Source: Gordonia sp. KTR9 (GTDB lineage Bacteria > Actinomycetota > Actinomycetes > Mycobacteriales > Mycobacteriaceae). From it: a stretch of 64,000 nucleotides of DNA. Below, piece by piece: positions 1,970 to 53,041 of this stretch. Within the stretch, counting starts at the first letter, position 1. Each line of letters begins with the position of its first letter. Made by a program: the position numbers and the translations under genes. The DNA is taken from the NCBI RefSeq assembly GCF_000143885.2, contig NC_018581.1:5146001-5210000 (forward strand), given 5' to 3'. The notes beneath the pieces were generated by a model. That model was given only the letters and a program-made list of their open reading frames with translations, did not search any database and was not told the DNA's origin.

Positions 1970-4351
1970 ATGGCAGGCGGCGAGATTCTGGAGGTCGACG
2001 GCCGCCGGATCTCGATCACCAACCTCTCGAAGGTGCTCTATCCGGCGACCGGGACCCGCAAGTTCGAGGTCATCGACTACTACTCGCGCATCGCCGACGT
2101 CCTCCTCCCCCATGTACGCAATCGCCTGATCACCCGCAAGCGGTGGCCCAACGGCGTCGAATCGACCCCGTTCTTCGAGAAGAACGTCCCCGAGAGCGCG
2201 CCCGAATGGATTCGACGCCACGGCATCCAGCACAGTGAACGGGTCATCTCCTATGCGATGGCCGACGACCGCGCCACGCTGGTCTGGCTCGCCCAGATGG
2301 CCGTGCTCGAGATCCACACACCGCAGTGGCGGCTCCCCATGGGGCCCGACGGAGCGCCCATGGCCAACCGCATCGTCTTCGACCTCGATCCCGGTCCACG
2401 GGTGCCGCTGCACCGGACCGCGGAGGTCGCGTGCGAGATACGCAACTGGCTCGGCGGGGCGACCACCTACCCGGTGACCAGCGGCGGAAAGGGCATCCAC
2501 CTCTACGCACGGCTTCCCAAACCCGTGACGTCCGACGCGGCGCGCAAGGTGGCACAAGAGGTCGCCAACGAGTTCGCGCGCCAGCACAGCGATTTCATCA
2601 CCGCCAAGATGTCCAAGTCGCTGCGCGACGACAAGGTCTTCATCGACTGGAGCCAGAACAACGCCGCCAAGACCACCCTCGCCCCCTACTCGCTGCGTGG
2701 TCGCGAGCAACCGTGGGTGGCGGCGCCGCGCACCTGGGAGGAGATGGAGGACCCGAAGCTCTCCCAGCTGCTCTACACCGAGGTGCTCGACCGGGTCGAC
2801 GAGTTCGGCGATCTCCTCGACGGTCTCGACGACCCCTACCGCGACGCCGATGACGGCGGGTCGGAACCCGTTGTCGAGCCCGCGGCGGGCCAGGTCATCA
2901 ATCTGAAGGAGTACCGGCGCAAGCGCGACCAGTCGAAGACGCCCGAGCCTTTCGGCGACGAGGTGTACCGGCAGCGCGTGGAGTCCGAGAGTCCCTCCGA
3001 TGAGCCCGATTCCACGGACTCCCCGACGGACCGGGCACCGATCTTCGTGATCCAGGAACACCACGCCCGACGCCTGCACTACGACTTCCGCCTCGAGCAC
3101 GACGGCGTCCTGGTGTCGTGGGCGGTGCCGAAGAACCTGCCCACCGATCCCGATCAGAACCGGCTCGCGGTGCAGACCGAGGACCACCCCATGGACTACG
3201 CCGACTTCGAAGGCGACATCCCGGCGGGCGAATACGGCGGCGGGCACGTGTCCATCTGGGACAAGGGCACATTCGAGCTCGAGAAGTGGCGGGACAAGGA
3301 GGTCATCGTCCGCCTGCACGGCGAGCGCGTCCAGGGGCGGTACGCGCTGATCCGAACCGGGGAGAAGAACTGGCTCGCCCACCTCATGAGCGACGAGCCG
3401 CGGCCGATCGTCCCCGACAGCCTCACCGATCCACGCCCGATGCTCGCAACCGATGAGTCGATCGACGGTCTCAACGGCCGCGACTGGGCGTTCGAGGGGA
3501 AGTGGGACGGGTACCGGTTGCTCATCCGCTCGGTCGGCGGCGACTTCCGGCTCACCTCCCGATCAGGCATCGACATGACCGCCGACTTCCCCGAACTCGC
3601 CGGTCTCGCAGACGATCTCGGGCTCATGGACGTGGTACTCGACGGCGAGGTCGTCGCCATCGACTCCTCCGGACGCACCAACTTCACCCTCCTGACCTCG
3701 CGCCGGCACACCGACGAGCCGTACGCGCTGCGGTTACACCTGTTCGACATCCTGTTCCTCAACGGCTCGTCGCTGCTGCGCAAGCCGTGGTCGGTCCGGC
3801 GCGAGCTCCTCGAGGAACTCGCACCTGCGTTCCGCAACTCCGCCTTCGTCGAAGTTCCGCCGCTGCTCCCCGGCCCGGGATCGGCCGCTGTCGAGTACAG
3901 CCGCGAACACAATCTCGAAGGCGTTGTCGCCAAACGCCGCAACTCGGTGTACCAGCAGGGGCGCCGGTCGACGACCTGGCTGAAGCACAAGAACTGGAGC
4001 GACATCGAGGTCGTCGTCGGCGGATATCGACCGGGGCGCGGCAACCGCGCGCACACCATCGGGTCCCTGCTGATCGGTCTGCCCGAGGAGACGGGACTGC
4101 GCTACGTCGGTCGGGTCGGCACCGGTTTCACCGACGCCCAGCTGCGTTCGCTCGCCGAGGAACTCGGCCCGTTGGAGATCTCGCGGTCGCCGTTCCTGGA
4201 CAAACTCGACCGCCCGGTCGAGTCGAGTGCGGTGTGGGTGCTCCCCAAGATCGTCGGCGAGGTCCGTTTCATGGACTGGACGACGGCCGGGCACCTGCGT
4301 CACCCCAGCTGGCGGGGAATCCGCCGGGACAAACTGCCCGGTGACCTCTGA
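1970..4351 (+). CDS. ligD: DNA ligase D (polymerase-phosphoesterase-ligase)
   Basis: A three-domain NHEJ ligase of about 793 residues in the mycobacterial order. An archaeo-eukaryotic primase-type polymerase is N-terminal (about 1-290, including IVFDLDPGP with metal-binding aspartates, and TSGGKGIHLY). A 3'-phosphoesterase follows (about 345-480, HHARRLHYDFRLEHDG). The ATP-dependent ligase is C-terminal, with the adenylated lysine near residue 511 in FEGKWDGYR, GEVVAID, and the VVGGYRPGRG and KIVGEVRF blocks of the OB fold. It seals breaks held by Ku and can add ribonucleotides. In-frame ATGs at 1952 and 1961 are alternative starts; the ribosome site is poor for all three. Confidence 0.96.
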   Translation: MAGGEILEVDGRRISITNLSKVLYPATGTRKFEVIDYYSRIADVLLPHVRNRLITRKRWPNGVESTPFFEKNVPESAPEWIRRHGIQHSERVISYAMADDRATLVWLAQMAVLEIHTPQWRLPMGPDGAPMANRIVFDLDPGPRVPLHRTAEVACEIRNWLGGATTYPVTSGGKGIHLYARLPKPVTSDAARKVAQEVANEFARQHSDFITAKMSKSLRDDKVFIDWSQNNAAKTTLAPYSLRGREQPWVAAPRTWEEMEDPKLSQLLYTEVLDRVDEFGDLLDGLDDPYRDADDGGSEPVVEPAAGQVINLKEYRRKRDQSKTPEPFGDEVYRQRVESESPSDEPDSTDSPTDRAPIFVIQEHHARRLHYDFRLEHDGVLVSWAVPKNLPTDPDQNRLAVQTEDHPMDYADFEGDIPAGEYGGGHVSIWDKGTFELEKWRDKEVIVRLHGERVQGRYALIRTGEKNWLAHLMSDEPRPIVPDSLTDPRPMLATDESIDGLNGRDWAFEGKWDGYRLLIRSVGGDFRLTSRSGIDMTADFPELAGLADDLGLMDVVLDGEVVAIDSSGRTNFTLLTSRRHTDEPYALRLHLFDILFLNGSSLLRKPWSVRRELLEELAPAFRNSAFVEVPPLLPGPGSAAVEYSREHNLEGVVAKRRNSVYQQGRRSTTWLKHKNWSDIEVVVGGYRPGRGNRAHTIGSLLIGLPEETGLRYVGRVGTGFTDAQLRSLAEELGPLEISRSPFLDKLDRPVESSAVWVLPKIVGEVRFMDWTTAGHLRHPSWRGIRRDKLPGDL

Positions 4352-4393
4352 GCTGCGACGGCACTGCGACCGGACGAGAACAGGAGCGTGGAC

Positions 4394-47453: not shown

Positions 47454-47526
47454 TGCGGGACTAGTCTCTTCTGCGAGTGCACATGCTCCGGAGCAACCCG
47501 GCATGGCTGCGGCGGGAGGAGATGCG

Positions 47527-49200
47527 GTGGCGGAGAACGAGGCCGACGCGGTGGTCGTCGGTGCGGGCCTGGCGGGACTCGTCGCGACATACGAGCTCAC
47601 CAAGGCCGGGCGTCGCGTCGTCGTGGTCGATCAGGAGAACCGCAACAACCTTGGTGCGCAGGCATTCTGGTCCCTGGGCGGGTTGTTCATGGTGGACACA
47701 CCCGAGCAGCGCCGCCTCGGCATCTCCGACTCCGCCGACCTCGCGCTGCAGGACTGGATGGGATCGGCGGGTTTCGATCGTGACGACGAGGACTACTGGC
47801 CACGCCAGTGGGCTCGCGCCTATGTGGACTTCGCCGCCACCGAGAAGCGGCAGTATCTGCACGACCTCGGTCTGCGTATCACCCCGATCGTCGGCTGGGC
47901 CGAACGCGGCGGCGGATTCGCCGACGGCCACGGCAACTCCGTGCCCCGCTTCCACGTCACGTGGGGAACCGGACCGGAGGTGGTCCGGGTCTTCGCCGAG
48001 CCGGTTCTGGAGGCGGAGAAGCGCGGGCTCGTCGAGTTCCGGTTCCGGCATCGCGTCGACGAACTCGTCGTCGACGACGGCACCGCCGTGGGCGTGCGGG
48101 GTGTGACACTCGCCCCGACCGACGCCGAGCGCGGCCGGGCGTCGAACCGGGATGTCGTGGGCGACTTCGAGATCCGTGCCGGATCGGTCATCGTCACCTC
48201 CGGCGGCATCGGGCACAACCACGATCTGATTCGCAAGAACTGGCCGGTCGATCGTCTCGGCCCCGCTCCGCAGACGATGATCTCCGGCGTCCCGGCGCAC
48301 GTCGACGGCCGGATGCTGGAGATCACCGAGAGCGCCGGCGCCAACATCGTCAACCGCGACCGGATGTGGCACTACACCGAGGGCATCCACAACTGGGACC
48401 CGATCTGGCCCGATCACGCGATCCGGATCATCCCCGGCCCGTCGTCACTCTGGCTCGACGCCAACGGCAATCGTCTCGCACCGCCGAACTTCCCCGGCTT
48501 CGACACCAATTCGACGATGAAGGCGATCCTGTCGGCGGGCCACGACTACTCGTGGTTCATCCTCACGCAGACGATCGTGGAGAAGGAGTTCATGCTGTCG
48601 GGGTCGGAGCAGAACCCCGACATCACCGAGAAGGACCTCAAGCTCACCGCGAAGAGCCGGCTGGCGAAGGGTGCCTCGGGACCGGTGGACGCCTTCGTGC
48701 GCAACGGCGTCGACTTCGTGGTCGCCGACAATCTGCCCGAGCTGGTGGCCGGGATGAACAAGATCGCTCGCGGCCCCGAACTCGACCTCGCGGAGATCGA
48801 GCGCATCATCTCCGCGCGCGACGCCGAGATCGGCAACAAGTTCTCCAAGGACGCCCAGCTGATGGCGATCACCAATGCGCGACAGTATCTCGGCGACAAG
48901 ATCGTTCGCGTCGCCAAGCCCCACCGGTTGCTCGACCCGGAGCACGGCCCGCTGATCGCGGTCCGGCTCAACGTCCTCACCCGCAAGACCCTGGGCGGTC
49001 TCGAGACCAACCTCGACTCCCAGGTGCTGCGGCCGGACGGCAGCGCCTTCGACGGCCTGTTCGCCGCCGGTGAGGTCGCGGGCTTCGGCGGTGGCGGCGT
49101 ACACGGGTACAACGCCCTGGAGGGGACGTTCCTCGGCGGATGCATCTTCTCCGGGCGCGCCGCCGGCCGGGCGGTGGCGCGGGCCACACCGCGCAGCTGA
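47527..49200 (+). CDS. FAD-binding dehydrogenase (Rv0785-like, KSTD-family fold)
   Basis: About 557 residues with the fold of 3-ketosteroid dehydrogenases. The FAD motif is VVVGAGLAGLVATYELTKAG and the substrate-side strands run through GGLFMVDTPEQRRLG and GNSVPRFHVTWGTGPEV; FGGGGVHGYNALEGTFLGGC ends the flavin-binding part. It is very close in layout to the mycobacterial Rv0785 family of FAD-binding dehydrogenases, whose substrate is unknown. The GTG at 47527 is chosen because GGGAGGAG precedes it by five bases; an ATG at 47503 has no ribosome site. No KstR-type site was found upstream. Confidence 0.88.
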   Translation: MAENEADAVVVGAGLAGLVATYELTKAGRRVVVVDQENRNNLGAQAFWSLGGLFMVDTPEQRRLGISDSADLALQDWMGSAGFDRDDEDYWPRQWARAYVDFAATEKRQYLHDLGLRITPIVGWAERGGGFADGHGNSVPRFHVTWGTGPEVVRVFAEPVLEAEKRGLVEFRFRHRVDELVVDDGTAVGVRGVTLAPTDAERGRASNRDVVGDFEIRAGSVIVTSGGIGHNHDLIRKNWPVDRLGPAPQTMISGVPAHVDGRMLEITESAGANIVNRDRMWHYTEGIHNWDPIWPDHAIRIIPGPSSLWLDANGNRLAPPNFPGFDTNSTMKAILSAGHDYSWFILTQTIVEKEFMLSGSEQNPDITEKDLKLTAKSRLAKGASGPVDAFVRNGVDFVVADNLPELVAGMNKIARGPELDLAEIERIISARDAEIGNKFSKDAQLMAITNARQYLGDKIVRVAKPHRLLDPEHGPLIAVRLNVLTRKTLGGLETNLDSQVLRPDGSAFDGLFAAGEVAGFGGGGVHGYNALEGTFLGGCIFSGRAAGRAVARATPRS

Positions 49201-49305
49201 CGCGGACTCGTCCGCACCTCGTCGTCGAAAAGGGTTGCCTGCCCTATACATTCGCAGCATGATCTGCCACCCCACGCCGGGTGACGATCGGCTAGGGTGT
49301 TGGGC

Positions 49306-50301
49306 GTGCCGGTGCCCCAGACGATCCTGACCCGGAAGACGAAGTCGGCGATCTTCCTCGTCTTCACCATCGACGACGGCGGTGAAGACGCGGTTCGCGA
49401 TGCGCTGGAAGAAATTCCCGGGCTGAACAACGCGGTGTCCTCGCGGGCACCGGAGGCCGCACTGGCCGGCATCGTGTCGATCGGGTCTGCGGCGTGGGAC
49501 CGCCTGTTCGCCGGCCCGCGGCCCCGTTCGTTGCGTCCGTTCGTTCCCTACGAGGGCGAGGTCCACACCGCCCCGGCGACGCCCGGGGACCTGCTCGTGC
49601 ACATCAAGTCCGACGACATGGGCCTGTGCTACGAGCTCGGTGCCAAGATCACCGAGTCCTTCGGGGGCGCGGTCACCGTGGTCGACGAGGTGCACGGCTT
49701 CCGCTACTTCGACCTGCGCGACCTCATCGGGTTCGTCGACGGCACCGAGAACCCGACCGGACAGGCCGCGATCGACGCCATCACGGTCGGCGCGGAGGAC
49801 CCGGACTTCGCGGGCGGCAGCTACGTCGCGATCCAGCGGTACGTGCACGACCTGTCGTCGTGGAACGACCTGAGCACCGAGGAGCAAGAAGCCGCGATCG
49901 GACGCACCAAGCTCGACAACGTCGAGATGTCCGACGAGGTGAAGCCGCCGAACTCCCACATCGCGCTGAACGTCGTCGAGGACGAGAACGGCGAGGAGAT
50001 CGACGTGGTCCGCGACAACATGCCCTACGGCGACGTCTCCGGCACCGGCGTGAACGGCACCTTCTACATCGCCTACTCGGCAGCGCCCGACGTCACCGAG
50101 GAGATGCTGCGCAAGATGTTCATCGGCGACCCGCCCGGCACCTACGACCGCCTCCTCGACTTCACCACCGCGGTGACCGGATCGCAGTTCTTCACCCCGA
50201 CCCTCGACTTCCTCGAAGAGCTGCCGCCCGCGCCCGACGCCGCACCCCCGTCCCCGACGACCCGTTCCGACGGTTCGCTGGGCATCGGGTCACTGCACTG
50301 A
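49306..50301 (+). CDS. DyP-type peroxidase with encapsulin-targeting tail
   Basis: About 331 residues of the heme-dependent dye-decolorising peroxidase family. The distal GxxDG motif is IGFVDGTENPTGQ (about residue 142), and the proximal heme-ligand histidine is within the PNSHIALN segment. The C-terminus ends RSDGSLGIGSLH, which matches the encapsulin cargo-loading peptide, and the encapsulin gene follows at 64 bp. The enzyme would be packed inside the shell to decompose peroxide. The GTG at 49306 fits GGCTAGGG upstream; a GTG at 49297 is in frame. Confidence 0.94.
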   Translation: MPVPQTILTRKTKSAIFLVFTIDDGGEDAVRDALEEIPGLNNAVSSRAPEAALAGIVSIGSAAWDRLFAGPRPRSLRPFVPYEGEVHTAPATPGDLLVHIKSDDMGLCYELGAKITESFGGAVTVVDEVHGFRYFDLRDLIGFVDGTENPTGQAAIDAITVGAEDPDFAGGSYVAIQRYVHDLSSWNDLSTEEQEAAIGRTKLDNVEMSDEVKPPNSHIALNVVEDENGEEIDVVRDNMPYGDVSGTGVNGTFYIAYSAAPDVTEEMLRKMFIGDPPGTYDRLLDFTTAVTGSQFFTPTLDFLEELPPAPDAAPPSPTTRSDGSLGIGSLH

Positions 50302-50365
50302 CGACACCCCGAGACCCGACCACCGCACCCCGGAAACCCCATCCCGGCCGCACCAGGAGGACACC

Positions 50366-51175
50366 ATGAACAACCTGCATCGCGAACTCGCGCCGATCTC
50401 CGACGCGGCGTGGGCGGAGATCGAGGAGGAGGCCACCCGCTCGTTCAAACGCAACGTCGCGGGCCGGCGCCTCGTCGACGTCACCGGGCCGCTCGGCTCC
50501 GACACCGCGTCGGTGACCCTGGGACATCGCACCAAGATCGACTCGCCCGCCCAGGGCATCACCGCGTTCCAGCGTCGCACCCAGTCGCTGGTCGAACTCA
50601 AGGTCCCGTTCACCGTGTCCCGGGAGGCCATCGACGACGTCGATCGCGGCGCGAAGGACTCCGACTGGGATCCGGTCGTGGACGCCGCGCGCGAACTCGC
50701 GCTCGCCGAGGACCGGGCCATCTTCGAGGGCTACACCGCGGCGTCGATCAATGGGATTCGCGCCGAGGCCTCCGCCTCCCCGATCCCGCTGCCCACCGAC
50801 GTCCGCGACTACCCGGAGGCGGTCAGTCAGGCGCTGAGCACGCTACGACTCGCGTCGGTCGACGGTCCGTACGCGGTGGCCCTGTCGGCCGAGGCCTACA
50901 CCCAGGTCAACGAGACGTCGAACCACGGCTACCCGATCCTCGAACACATCCAGCGGCTGTTCACCGGCGACATCGTGTGGGCGCCGGCGATCAGCGGCGC
51001 GTTCGTCATGAGCACGCGCGGCGGCGACTTCGAGCTGACCATCGGCCAGGACGTGTCGATCGGCTACGACTCACACGACGGCGATGTGGTGAACCTCTAC
51101 TTCCAGGAGTCGTTCACCTTCCTCACCCACACTGCGGAGGCGGCCGTCGCGCTGACCGAACCGCCGACCGTCTGA
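50366..51175 (+). CDS. family 1 encapsulin shell protein
   Basis: 269 residues, the usual length of T=1 encapsulins. The HK97-type fold signatures are present: MNNLHRELAPISDAAWAEIE at the N-terminus, ARRLVDVTGP-like FKRNVAGRRLVDVTGPLG, the E-loop LVELKVPFTVSREAIDDVDR and the C-terminal YFQESFTFLTHTAEAAVALT. Sixty copies would form a roughly 24-nm shell. It is coupled with a DyP peroxidase that bears a loading tail, so this is a peroxidase nanocompartment. AGGAGG six bases before the ATG fixes the start. Confidence 0.96.
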   Translation: MNNLHRELAPISDAAWAEIEEEATRSFKRNVAGRRLVDVTGPLGSDTASVTLGHRTKIDSPAQGITAFQRRTQSLVELKVPFTVSREAIDDVDRGAKDSDWDPVVDAARELALAEDRAIFEGYTAASINGIRAEASASPIPLPTDVRDYPEAVSQALSTLRLASVDGPYAVALSAEAYTQVNETSNHGYPILEHIQRLFTGDIVWAPAISGAFVMSTRGGDFELTIGQDVSIGYDSHDGDVVNLYFQESFTFLTHTAEAAVALTEPPTV

Positions 51176-51307: not shown

Positions 51308-53041
51308 ATGCTGACCCGCCTCATCCGCACGTACCTGGCGCGGTACCGGATCAACGTCGTACTCGTCATCGTGCTGCAGCTGCTCGCGACCACCGCGATG
51401 CTGTTCCTGCCGAGCCTGAACGCCGACATCATCGACAACGGCGTGGCCCGCGGGGACACCGGCTACATCCTGCGCATCGGCGGATGGATGCTGCTGGTGA
51501 GCGTCGCGCAGATCATCGTCACGGTCGCCGCCCAGTTCTTCGGGTCCCGCGCCGCGCTGGGGGTCGGGCGCGACATCCGCGGCGACCTGCTGCACCGGGT
51601 GAACTCCTTCTCCGCACGCGAGGTCGGCACCTTCGGTGCACCGTCGTTGATCACCCGCACCACCAACGACGTCCAGCAGGTGCAGATGCTCATCGTCATG
51701 AGCAGCGCGATCCTGGTGATGGCTCCGATCATGTGCATCGGCGGCATCATCATGGGAGTCCGCGAGGCGCCCGCATTGTCGTGGGTCATCGCCATCGCGG
51801 TACCCGTACTCGGGGTCTCGATGGGGGCCATCATCGCGAAGATGATCCCCGGCTTCCGCGCCATGCAGGAACGGATCGACAACGTCAACCGCGTCCTGCG
51901 CGAGCAGATCACCGGCATCCGGGTCGTCCGGGCGTTCGTGCGGGAGGACTACGAGCGCAGGCGGTTCGCCGTCGCCAACGACGATCTCGCCGATGCGACC
52001 CTGCACGTCGGACGGCTGATGGCCCTGATGTTCCCGGTCGTCATGGTGATCACCAATGTCACCATCGTCGCGGTCATCTGGTTCGGCGGTCACGCGGTCT
52101 CCGACGGTTCGCTCGAGATCGGCGCGCTGACCGCCGTGATGAGCTACGTCATGCAGATCCTGATGTCGGTGATGATGGCGTCGTTCCTGGCGATGATGGC
52201 ACCGCGCGCGGCGGTCTGCGCCGAGCGCATCTCCGAGGTCCTGGCCACCGACACCTCGGTCCATCCGCCCAGTGAGCCGATCGGATTCGCCACCCATCCG
52301 GGCATGGTGGAGTTCGACGCCGCCGAGTTCCGCTACCCCGGCGCCGACGACCCGGTGTTGAGCGGCATCGACTTCCGCGTCGAGCCGGGCACGACGACCG
52401 CGATCGTCGGATCGACCGGGTCGGGCAAGACGACACTCGTCGGGCTGGTCCCGCGACTGATCGACACGACGTCCGGCGCGGTCCGGGTCGGCGGTACGGA
52501 CGTGAAGCGGCTCGACCCCGATGAACTGCGATCGGTCGTCGGCCTGGTTCCGCAGCGGCCGTACCTCTTCTCGGGAACCGTCCGCTCGAACCTGCTGCAC
52601 GGCAAGGCCGACGCGACCGACGACGAGATCTGGGAGGCCCTGCGGATCGCGCAGGCCGAGGACTTCGTGTCGGCGATGCCCGACGGGCTCGACACCAAGG
52701 TGTCCCAGGGCGGCACGACCGTCTCCGGCGGACAGCGCCAGCGCCTGGCGATCGCTCGGGCACTCATCCGCCGACCGGCCATCTACCTGTTCGACGACTC
52801 GTTCTCCGCGCTCGACCTCACCACGGATGCACGGTTGCGCGCCGCACTGCGTCCGGCCACACGCGAGGCGGCGGTGATCGTGGTGGCCCAACGTATCTCG
52901 ACCATCATCGACGCCGAGCAGATCGTCGTCCTCGATCGCGGACGGATCGTCGGTCTCGGTACGCACGACGACCTGCGCCAGTCGTGTCCCACCTATGCCG
53001 AGATCGTCGAATCGCAGATGGCGATGGAGGAGCGCGCATGA
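51308..53041 (+). CDS. ABC exporter half 1 (heterodimeric, degenerate catalytic residues)
   Basis: 577 residues: six membrane helices (1 to about 310) and one ATP-binding domain. Walker A is VGSTGSGKTT, the signature is VSGGQRQRLAIARAL, and Walker B is IYLFDDSFSALD with Asp where the catalytic Glu should be. The switch residue in VVAQRISTI is Gln instead of His. These changes mark a catalytically inactive ATP site of a heterodimeric exporter. The gene's stop overlaps the ATG of half 2 (ATGA). The substrate is unknown; drug or lipid export is typical. Confidence 0.94.
   Translation: MLTRLIRTYLARYRINVVLVIVLQLLATTAMLFLPSLNADIIDNGVARGDTGYILRIGGWMLLVSVAQIIVTVAAQFFGSRAALGVGRDIRGDLLHRVNSFSAREVGTFGAPSLITRTTNDVQQVQMLIVMSSAILVMAPIMCIGGIIMGVREAPALSWVIAIAVPVLGVSMGAIIAKMIPGFRAMQERIDNVNRVLREQITGIRVVRAFVREDYERRRFAVANDDLADATLHVGRLMALMFPVVMVITNVTIVAVIWFGGHAVSDGSLEIGALTAVMSYVMQILMSVMMASFLAMMAPRAAVCAERISEVLATDTSVHPPSEPIGFATHPGMVEFDAAEFRYPGADDPVLSGIDFRVEPGTTTAIVGSTGSGKTTLVGLVPRLIDTTSGAVRVGGTDVKRLDPDELRSVVGLVPQRPYLFSGTVRSNLLHGKADATDDEIWEALRIAQAEDFVSAMPDGLDTKVSQGGTTVSGGQRQRLAIARALIRRPAIYLFDDSFSALDLTTDARLRAALRPATREAAVIVVAQRISTIIDAEQIVVLDRGRIVGLGTHDDLRQSCPTYAEIVESQMAMEERA

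Follow-up and report, generated by a model that had tools for sequence, protein, structure and literature searches.

DyP encapsulins are the commonest of the family 1 systems, and their general function has been called speculative (PMC8346489). The compartment of Mycobacterium tuberculosis confers peroxide resistance at low pH (PMC8635971), and the shell residues contacted by its cargo tail include Arg34, Asp229 and Val230, with a contact between Asp202 and the last Lys of the tail present in one of the nine peptides of the crystal (PMC11676171). With the system of Klebsiella pneumoniae, an alanine scan has shown that loading depends on every one of three hydrophobic tail residues, on the inner Gly and on the Lys that follows IGSL, that Arg34 and Asp229 of the shell are crucial to the process and that Asp38 is mostly dispensable; the heme-site residues of the peroxidase, KpDyP, are named as H225 and R242 (PMC10960027). 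On the regulatory side, the sdhCD, ftn and dps genes of Corynebacterium glutamicum are targets of DtxR whose expression falls in a dtxR mutant, and ftn and dps are transcribed as leaderless mRNAs with the DtxR site placed upstream of the -35 region, an arrangement that has been interpreted as activation (PMC1382209).

The locus described here lies within a window, the whole stretch of DNA analysed, of 64,000 nucleotides from Gordonia sp. KTR9 (G000:C2:5146001-5210000; Table 1), and is very probably a classical encapsulin of family 1 whose cargo is a DyP peroxidase. The original prediction had named both cargo and shell, and this identification has held, as both genes pass curated family models and both products have solved relatives. 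The peroxidase matches PF04261, PF20628 and TIGR01413 in profile searches, the last with 263 bits against a cut-off of 100.5, and the shell, which had been described as being of ordinary length, matches PF04454 with 323 bits over residues 1-251 and the curated family model NF041155 (encap_f1) with 342.4 bits against a cut-off of 100 over residues 4-263. The reading frame of the peroxidase does indeed end in DGSLGIGSLH, and the shell gene begins at the distance of 64 bp that had been given. To this first reading are added the leaderless promoter layout, an iron-box-like dyad upstream of it and the terminal His of the tail.

Table 1. Features of the DyP encapsulin locus and its neighbours (positions are those of the window)
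Feature	Positions	Strand	Details
Upstream neighbour, FAD-binding dehydrogenase	47503..49200	+	NF009472; probably outside the system
DtxR/IdeR-like dyad AAAGGGTTGCCTGCCCTAT, predicted iron box	49229..49247	.	First base at -77 from the DyP start codon, centre about -68
Predicted -10 element TAGGGT	49293..49298	+	7 nt before GTG 49306
DyP-type heme peroxidase, predicted encapsulin cargo	49306..50301	+	331 aa, GTG start, TGA stop; family models
C-terminal targeting peptide (G)SLGIGSLH	50272..50298	+	SLGIGSL is DyP residues 324-330, followed by His331
Intergenic gap of 64 bp	50302..50365	+	Contains the shell ribosome-binding site, AGGAGG before ATG
Family 1 encapsulin shell protein	50366..51175	+	269 aa, ATG start; NF041155, PF04454
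Downstream neighbour, ABC transporter subunit	51308..53041	+	Probably unrelated; seen in the examined stretch in 55/58 Gordonia genomes

Among solved structures 9i8d is nearest to the shell; next come Cfp29 entries, 9fn9 and 7boj among them, and the matches cover residues 1-264. From these full-length matches to solved shells an HK97 fold and a T=1 assembly can be inferred. The solved relatives of the peroxidase are 7bok (residues 2-330) and 9bkx, and both matches run through the tail to residue 330. The entry 9bkx is taken to be an encapsulin-DyP complex of M. tuberculosis, and 9fn9 and 7p1t to belong to the DyP-encapsulin (Cfp29) system of Mycobacterium. The Mycobacterium system represented by 7bok, 9bkx, 9fn9 and 7p1t is made up of the same two proteins and has its reported pocket residues kept here, apart from substitutions at positions 24 (T in place of A) and 31 (V in place of I). 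The pocket residues R34, D38, T217, D229 and V230 are all present in the shell, and across 58 Gordonia genomes R34, R35, D229 and V230 are invariant, with D38 kept in 57 and T217 in 53. In the peroxidase D145, H218 and R236 are likewise invariant (58/58) and presumably represent heme-site residues, an assignment that follows the naming of H225 and R242 in KpDyP together with what is generally known of DyP peroxidases. The nearest named relative of the shell is that of G. lacunae, at 98%, and the best named shell relatives all belong to Gordonia. The relative 7bok comes from M. smegmatis (PMC11676171). The contacts made by Arg34, Asp38 and Asp229 in the DyP encapsulin of K. pneumoniae (8u4z, 8u50) also have their counterparts here, whereas the formate dehydrogenase and the sigma factor that the Klebsiella operon adds are not found among the four flanking genes that were checked.

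A genus-wide search found the full DyP and shell pair in 58 of 59 Gordonia genomes and, since both proteins also have solved relatives, the system is an ordinary one: a new member of the family 1 DyP encapsulins, to which the promoter and the His-ended tails represent modest, testable additions. The two genes are adjacent on one strand in all 58 genomes, with a gap that ranges from -4 to 104 bp; it measures 20-104 bp in 57 of them, and a single genome (G023) has an overlap of 4 bp. At loci outside Gordonia (among L022-L081), an overlap of 4 bp between the end of DyP and the start of the shell gene is common. The 59th genome, G027, retains only fragments of DyP and shell in their original order (L210, G027:C3:196500-205000, 3915-4361) between neighbours that are still intact, with the FAD gene upstream matching at 85% and the ABC genes downstream at 78%. 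Within this 8.5-kb locus the remains of DyP correspond to residues 1-38 and 93-138 (E 5e-6 and 9e-5), and those of the shell to residues 138-179 (E 5e-7), with a second, overlapping match to residues 99-194 (E 4e-6), which suggests that the pair degenerated jointly. The upstream FAD dehydrogenase was considered as a further component and rejected: it is found in the examined stretch in 50 of the 58 genomes, in 8 of which it lies on the opposite strand, so that with the 8 genomes where it is not seen in the stretch there are 16 of 58 without the arrangement found here.

Is the short tail at the end of the peroxidase real, and is it held in place by selection? A degenerate DNA pattern for G-S-L-x-I-G-S-L has 2 matches in the 5.9 Mb genome, one being the DyP end, in frame, and the other lying out of frame within an ORF that appears helicase-like by inspection; the DyP tail is beyond chance. 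The SLxIGxL form is kept in all 58 Gordonia genomes and the exact SLGIGSL in 55, and across these genomes the tail codons change freely at synonymous sites while the residues that they encode stay the same. The seven tail codons have a pN/pS ratio of 0.087, compared with 0.40 across the DyP core and 0.85 at the one codon past the motif; the linker that precedes the tail gives about 0.81, from an unreliable alignment. This linker varies in both length and sequence from genome to genome, and a constrained tail behind a variable linker is what would be expected of a short peptide that docks while loosely tethered. An apparent loss of the tail in about a dozen genomes, where alignments stopped near residue 312-322, turned out to be an artefact of longer linkers, the tail being present in 58 of 58. 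There is no second cargo in the genome by the tail motif, the other pattern match being out of frame; the C-termini of five ferritin-like proteins, inspected by eye, also lack the tail, and a search with the DyP C-terminal domain gave no further match that could represent a second DyP. In Kitasatospora cheerisanensis (L077) the DyP frame ends without a targeting motif, possibly through a frameshift or a sequencing error, with the shell gene 16 bp further on.

The tail of this DyP departs from the familiar form at its last position, as the residue following IGSL is His331 and not the Lys or Arg that is the usual, though not class-defining, trait of DyP cargo. This is the position of Lys346 in the Klebsiella peroxidase, and whereas the tail here ends with the His, one residue past IGSL, that of M. 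tuberculosis has a Lys at the same place (PMC11676171). Of the 58 Gordonia genomes, 32 have Arg at this position and 24 have His, with a single Lys and a single Ala, and in 51 genomes the residue is the very last of the protein. Of the 56 loci from outside the genus, 40 have Lys, 10 have Arg, one has Ser and one Asn, and 4 could not be read; no His is found in the 52 readable tails, 51 of which continue for at least three residues past IGSL. Within the genus the exchange between His and Arg is real, with at least 12 switches on the Gordonia tree, and the common codons for the two residues, CAC and CGC, are one base apart.

The start of the peroxidase gene can be considered together with its promoter. 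In 57 of the 58 Gordonia genomes a TANNNT element stands 6-9 nt ahead of the DyP start codon, compared with 22 of 1334 control windows. A search with the same pattern for both genes finds that Shine-Dalgarno-like bases precede the shell gene in 56 of the 58 genomes and dyp in 2 of them. The combination of TANNNT so near to the start with the missing Shine-Dalgarno sequence leads to the prediction of a leaderless dyp mRNA, transcribed from a promoter directly before the GTG. This layout in turn supports the GTG at 49306, the start that had been proposed, over the in-frame GTG at 49297. A scan for sigma-70 promoters and terminators found 0 and 0, such a scan being uninformative for a promoter of this type.

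Upstream of the promoter, an alignment of 12 near genomes contains a conserved block, AAAAGG-TTGCCT--CCT, in otherwise variable surroundings, and it is here that the dyad resembling a DtxR/IdeR site is found. The comparison was made with the 19-bp DtxR consensus dyad, which resembles TTAGGTTAGSCTAACCTAA, and with symmetric matrices built from C. glutamicum DtxR sites (24 sites, all 40 shown, or the 13 starred; PMC1382209). With the 24-site matrix the dyad is a partial match that scores 10.4 bits, the best of 63,982 positions in the window, with the next at 7.05 and with 0.7% of background windows reaching 7 bits; it also ranks first with 40 sites (10.4, next 7.4) and with 13 sites (12.9, next 7.9). 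With the 24-site matrix, 25 of the 58 Gordonia genomes have their highest-scoring upstream site at -76 to -79, 21 of these sites scoring at least 7 bits and four 3.1-6.6, and the count is 23 with the 40-site matrix and 25 with the 13-site matrix. All 25 box-bearing genomes belong to one clade of 31 members (support 94/86), six of which lack the box, and no Gordonia genome outside this clade has its best site at that position, making 33 of 58 without a box there. A site of at least 8 bits anywhere is found in 3 of 54 non-Gordonia relatives, a set scanned without M. tuberculosis. As the box is missing from 33 of the 58 Gordonia genomes and from most relatives outside the genus, iron control would be the trait of a clade and not part of the core system.

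The wider iron regulon of this genome provides a setting for the dyad. Allowing at most one mismatch, the block motif occurs at 3 places in the whole genome, compared with 1 place for the backward control pattern, and the second of these places, with one mismatch, is the bfd-bfr promoter; the third (C2:2922006) appears to fall inside a coding stretch that lacks a proper gene call, and was discounted as a likely chance match. The bfd-bfr promoter itself carries two DtxR-like sites, scoring about 22 and 15.8 (L216:1259-1519 (-), G000:C2 near 1925800), and a site scoring at least 10 lies within 500 bp upstream of bfr at all 30 of the Gordonia bfr loci examined. A further box, scoring 23.0 with 3 mismatches to the consensus, sits between sdhC-sdhD and an ORF labelled by inspection as cytidine deaminase-like (G000:C2:1937264; L211 near 1501). 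Both bfd-bfr (22.2) and sdhCD (23.0) have sites that score higher than the DyP box (10.4). The genome encodes a full DtxR of 234 aa, with 326.8 bits against a cut-off of 290. In the part of the open literature that was covered, no report was found of the control of a DyP encapsulin by an iron regulator. The dyp promoter resembles those of ftn and dps in C. glutamicum, with its leaderless layout and the DtxR site upstream of -35 (PMC1382209), and this shared layout favours activation by iron-loaded DtxR; the differences are that the product here is an encapsulin cargo and that the iron regulation here is predicted. Activation of the dyp operon by iron-loaded DtxR in the box-bearing clade is, by this analogy, a proposal that we hold at slightly below even confidence.

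Taken together, these features suggest how the system may operate. Shell subunits would assemble into a T=1 capsid of the HK97 fold, within which oligomers of DyP would be bound through the C-terminal SLGIGSLH tail, whose three hydrophobic residues would occupy a pocket in the shell P-domain with backbone contacts to R34 and D229, leaving the last residue to face the acidic D38 or D202. Once inside, the heme peroxidase would probably detoxify peroxides or organic radicals under oxidative stress and, by analogy with the peroxide resistance of M. tuberculosis, the Gordonia particle should be a compartment for peroxide defence. The dyp gene would be transcribed leaderless from the promoter directly before its GTG. 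In the box-bearing clade, binding of a DtxR/IdeR dimer charged with iron to the dyad around -68 may switch the operon on under iron-replete conditions, together with bacterioferritin. That one Gordonia clade has wired its DyP nanocompartment into the DtxR/IdeR regulon, as an iron-replete function beside bacterioferritin, and that the Arg/His exchange could render loading pH-dependent, is offered tentatively, as a combined proposal that has rather less than an even claim to be correct. If true, the iron-regulon wiring would suggest that the job of the compartment is to control iron-driven peroxide chemistry, and the site for an iron regulator in a conserved promoter would define a concrete condition under which a DyP encapsulin is made.

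How well do the identity of the shell and the assignment of the dyad withstand other explanations? As encapsulins and phage capsids have the HK97 fold in common (PMC8346489), the shell might be a phage or prophage capsid remnant that lies next to DyP by accident. This can be given almost no credence against the match to NF041155, an equivalog model (342 bits), a pair retained in 58 of 59 genomes, a tail under selection and the joint decay in G027. A far more serious contender is that the system is just as described and that the dyad at 49229-49247 serves some other dimeric regulator, of oxidative stress or otherwise, or forms part of an upstream promoter, which we consider a real prospect if a somewhat doubtful one. 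It would accommodate the partial nature of the match to the DtxR consensus, the 33 genomes without the dyad, and the finding that 42 of 2000 column-permuted matrices equal the score at the locus with 24 sites (12 of 1000 with 40 sites and 6 of 1000 with 13); permuted matrices place the best site of the window upstream of DyP in 4 of 200 cases. It accounts less readily for the arms of the dyad and their 15-base spacing, which by inspection fit those of a DtxR dyad, for the genus-wide mean, which is equalled by only 1 of 2000 permuted matrices with 24 sites, 4 of 1000 with 40 and 2 of 1000 with 13, and for the presence of the bfd-bfr promoter as one of the two other places in the genome with the motif.

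The terminal His raises a separate alternative, namely that a tail ending in this way loads poorly or at low pH only, such that DyP is mainly free or its packaging is gated by pH. The change of Klebsiella Lys346 to Ala, at the position of the His, abolished loading (PMC10960027), and in Gordonia the residue alternates between His and Arg, with Ala in one genome. Asp38 of the shell, kept almost throughout the genus, could nevertheless pair with the His, yet the Asp38 mutant in Klebsiella still loaded in part (PMC10960027). The SLGIGSL core is kept alike in His-tailed and Arg-tailed genomes, and the DyP-shell pair has been retained together. A pairing between shell residue 202 and the tail residue would also speak for loading: 20 of 24 His tails occur with Asp and 22 of 32 Arg tails with Glu, an association that ranks 1 of 132 shell columns in the raw counts, but in a model that includes the tree it comes only 19th of 107 columns (likelihood ratio 9.4) and it is not significant by independent pair comparisons, and a matching change at residue 202 was dropped from the account on these grounds. 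On balance poor or strictly gated loading is improbable, and the reading in which the His-ended tail directs DyP into the shell is retained. The natural His-ended and Arg-ended tails represent ready variants for testing the loading rule. The one Gordonia genome with Ala at this position (G013, L169), where the other 57 have Arg, His or Lys, continues for 11 more residues beyond its IGxL-Ala, and this tail is the natural counterpart of the Klebsiella Lys346-to-Ala change.
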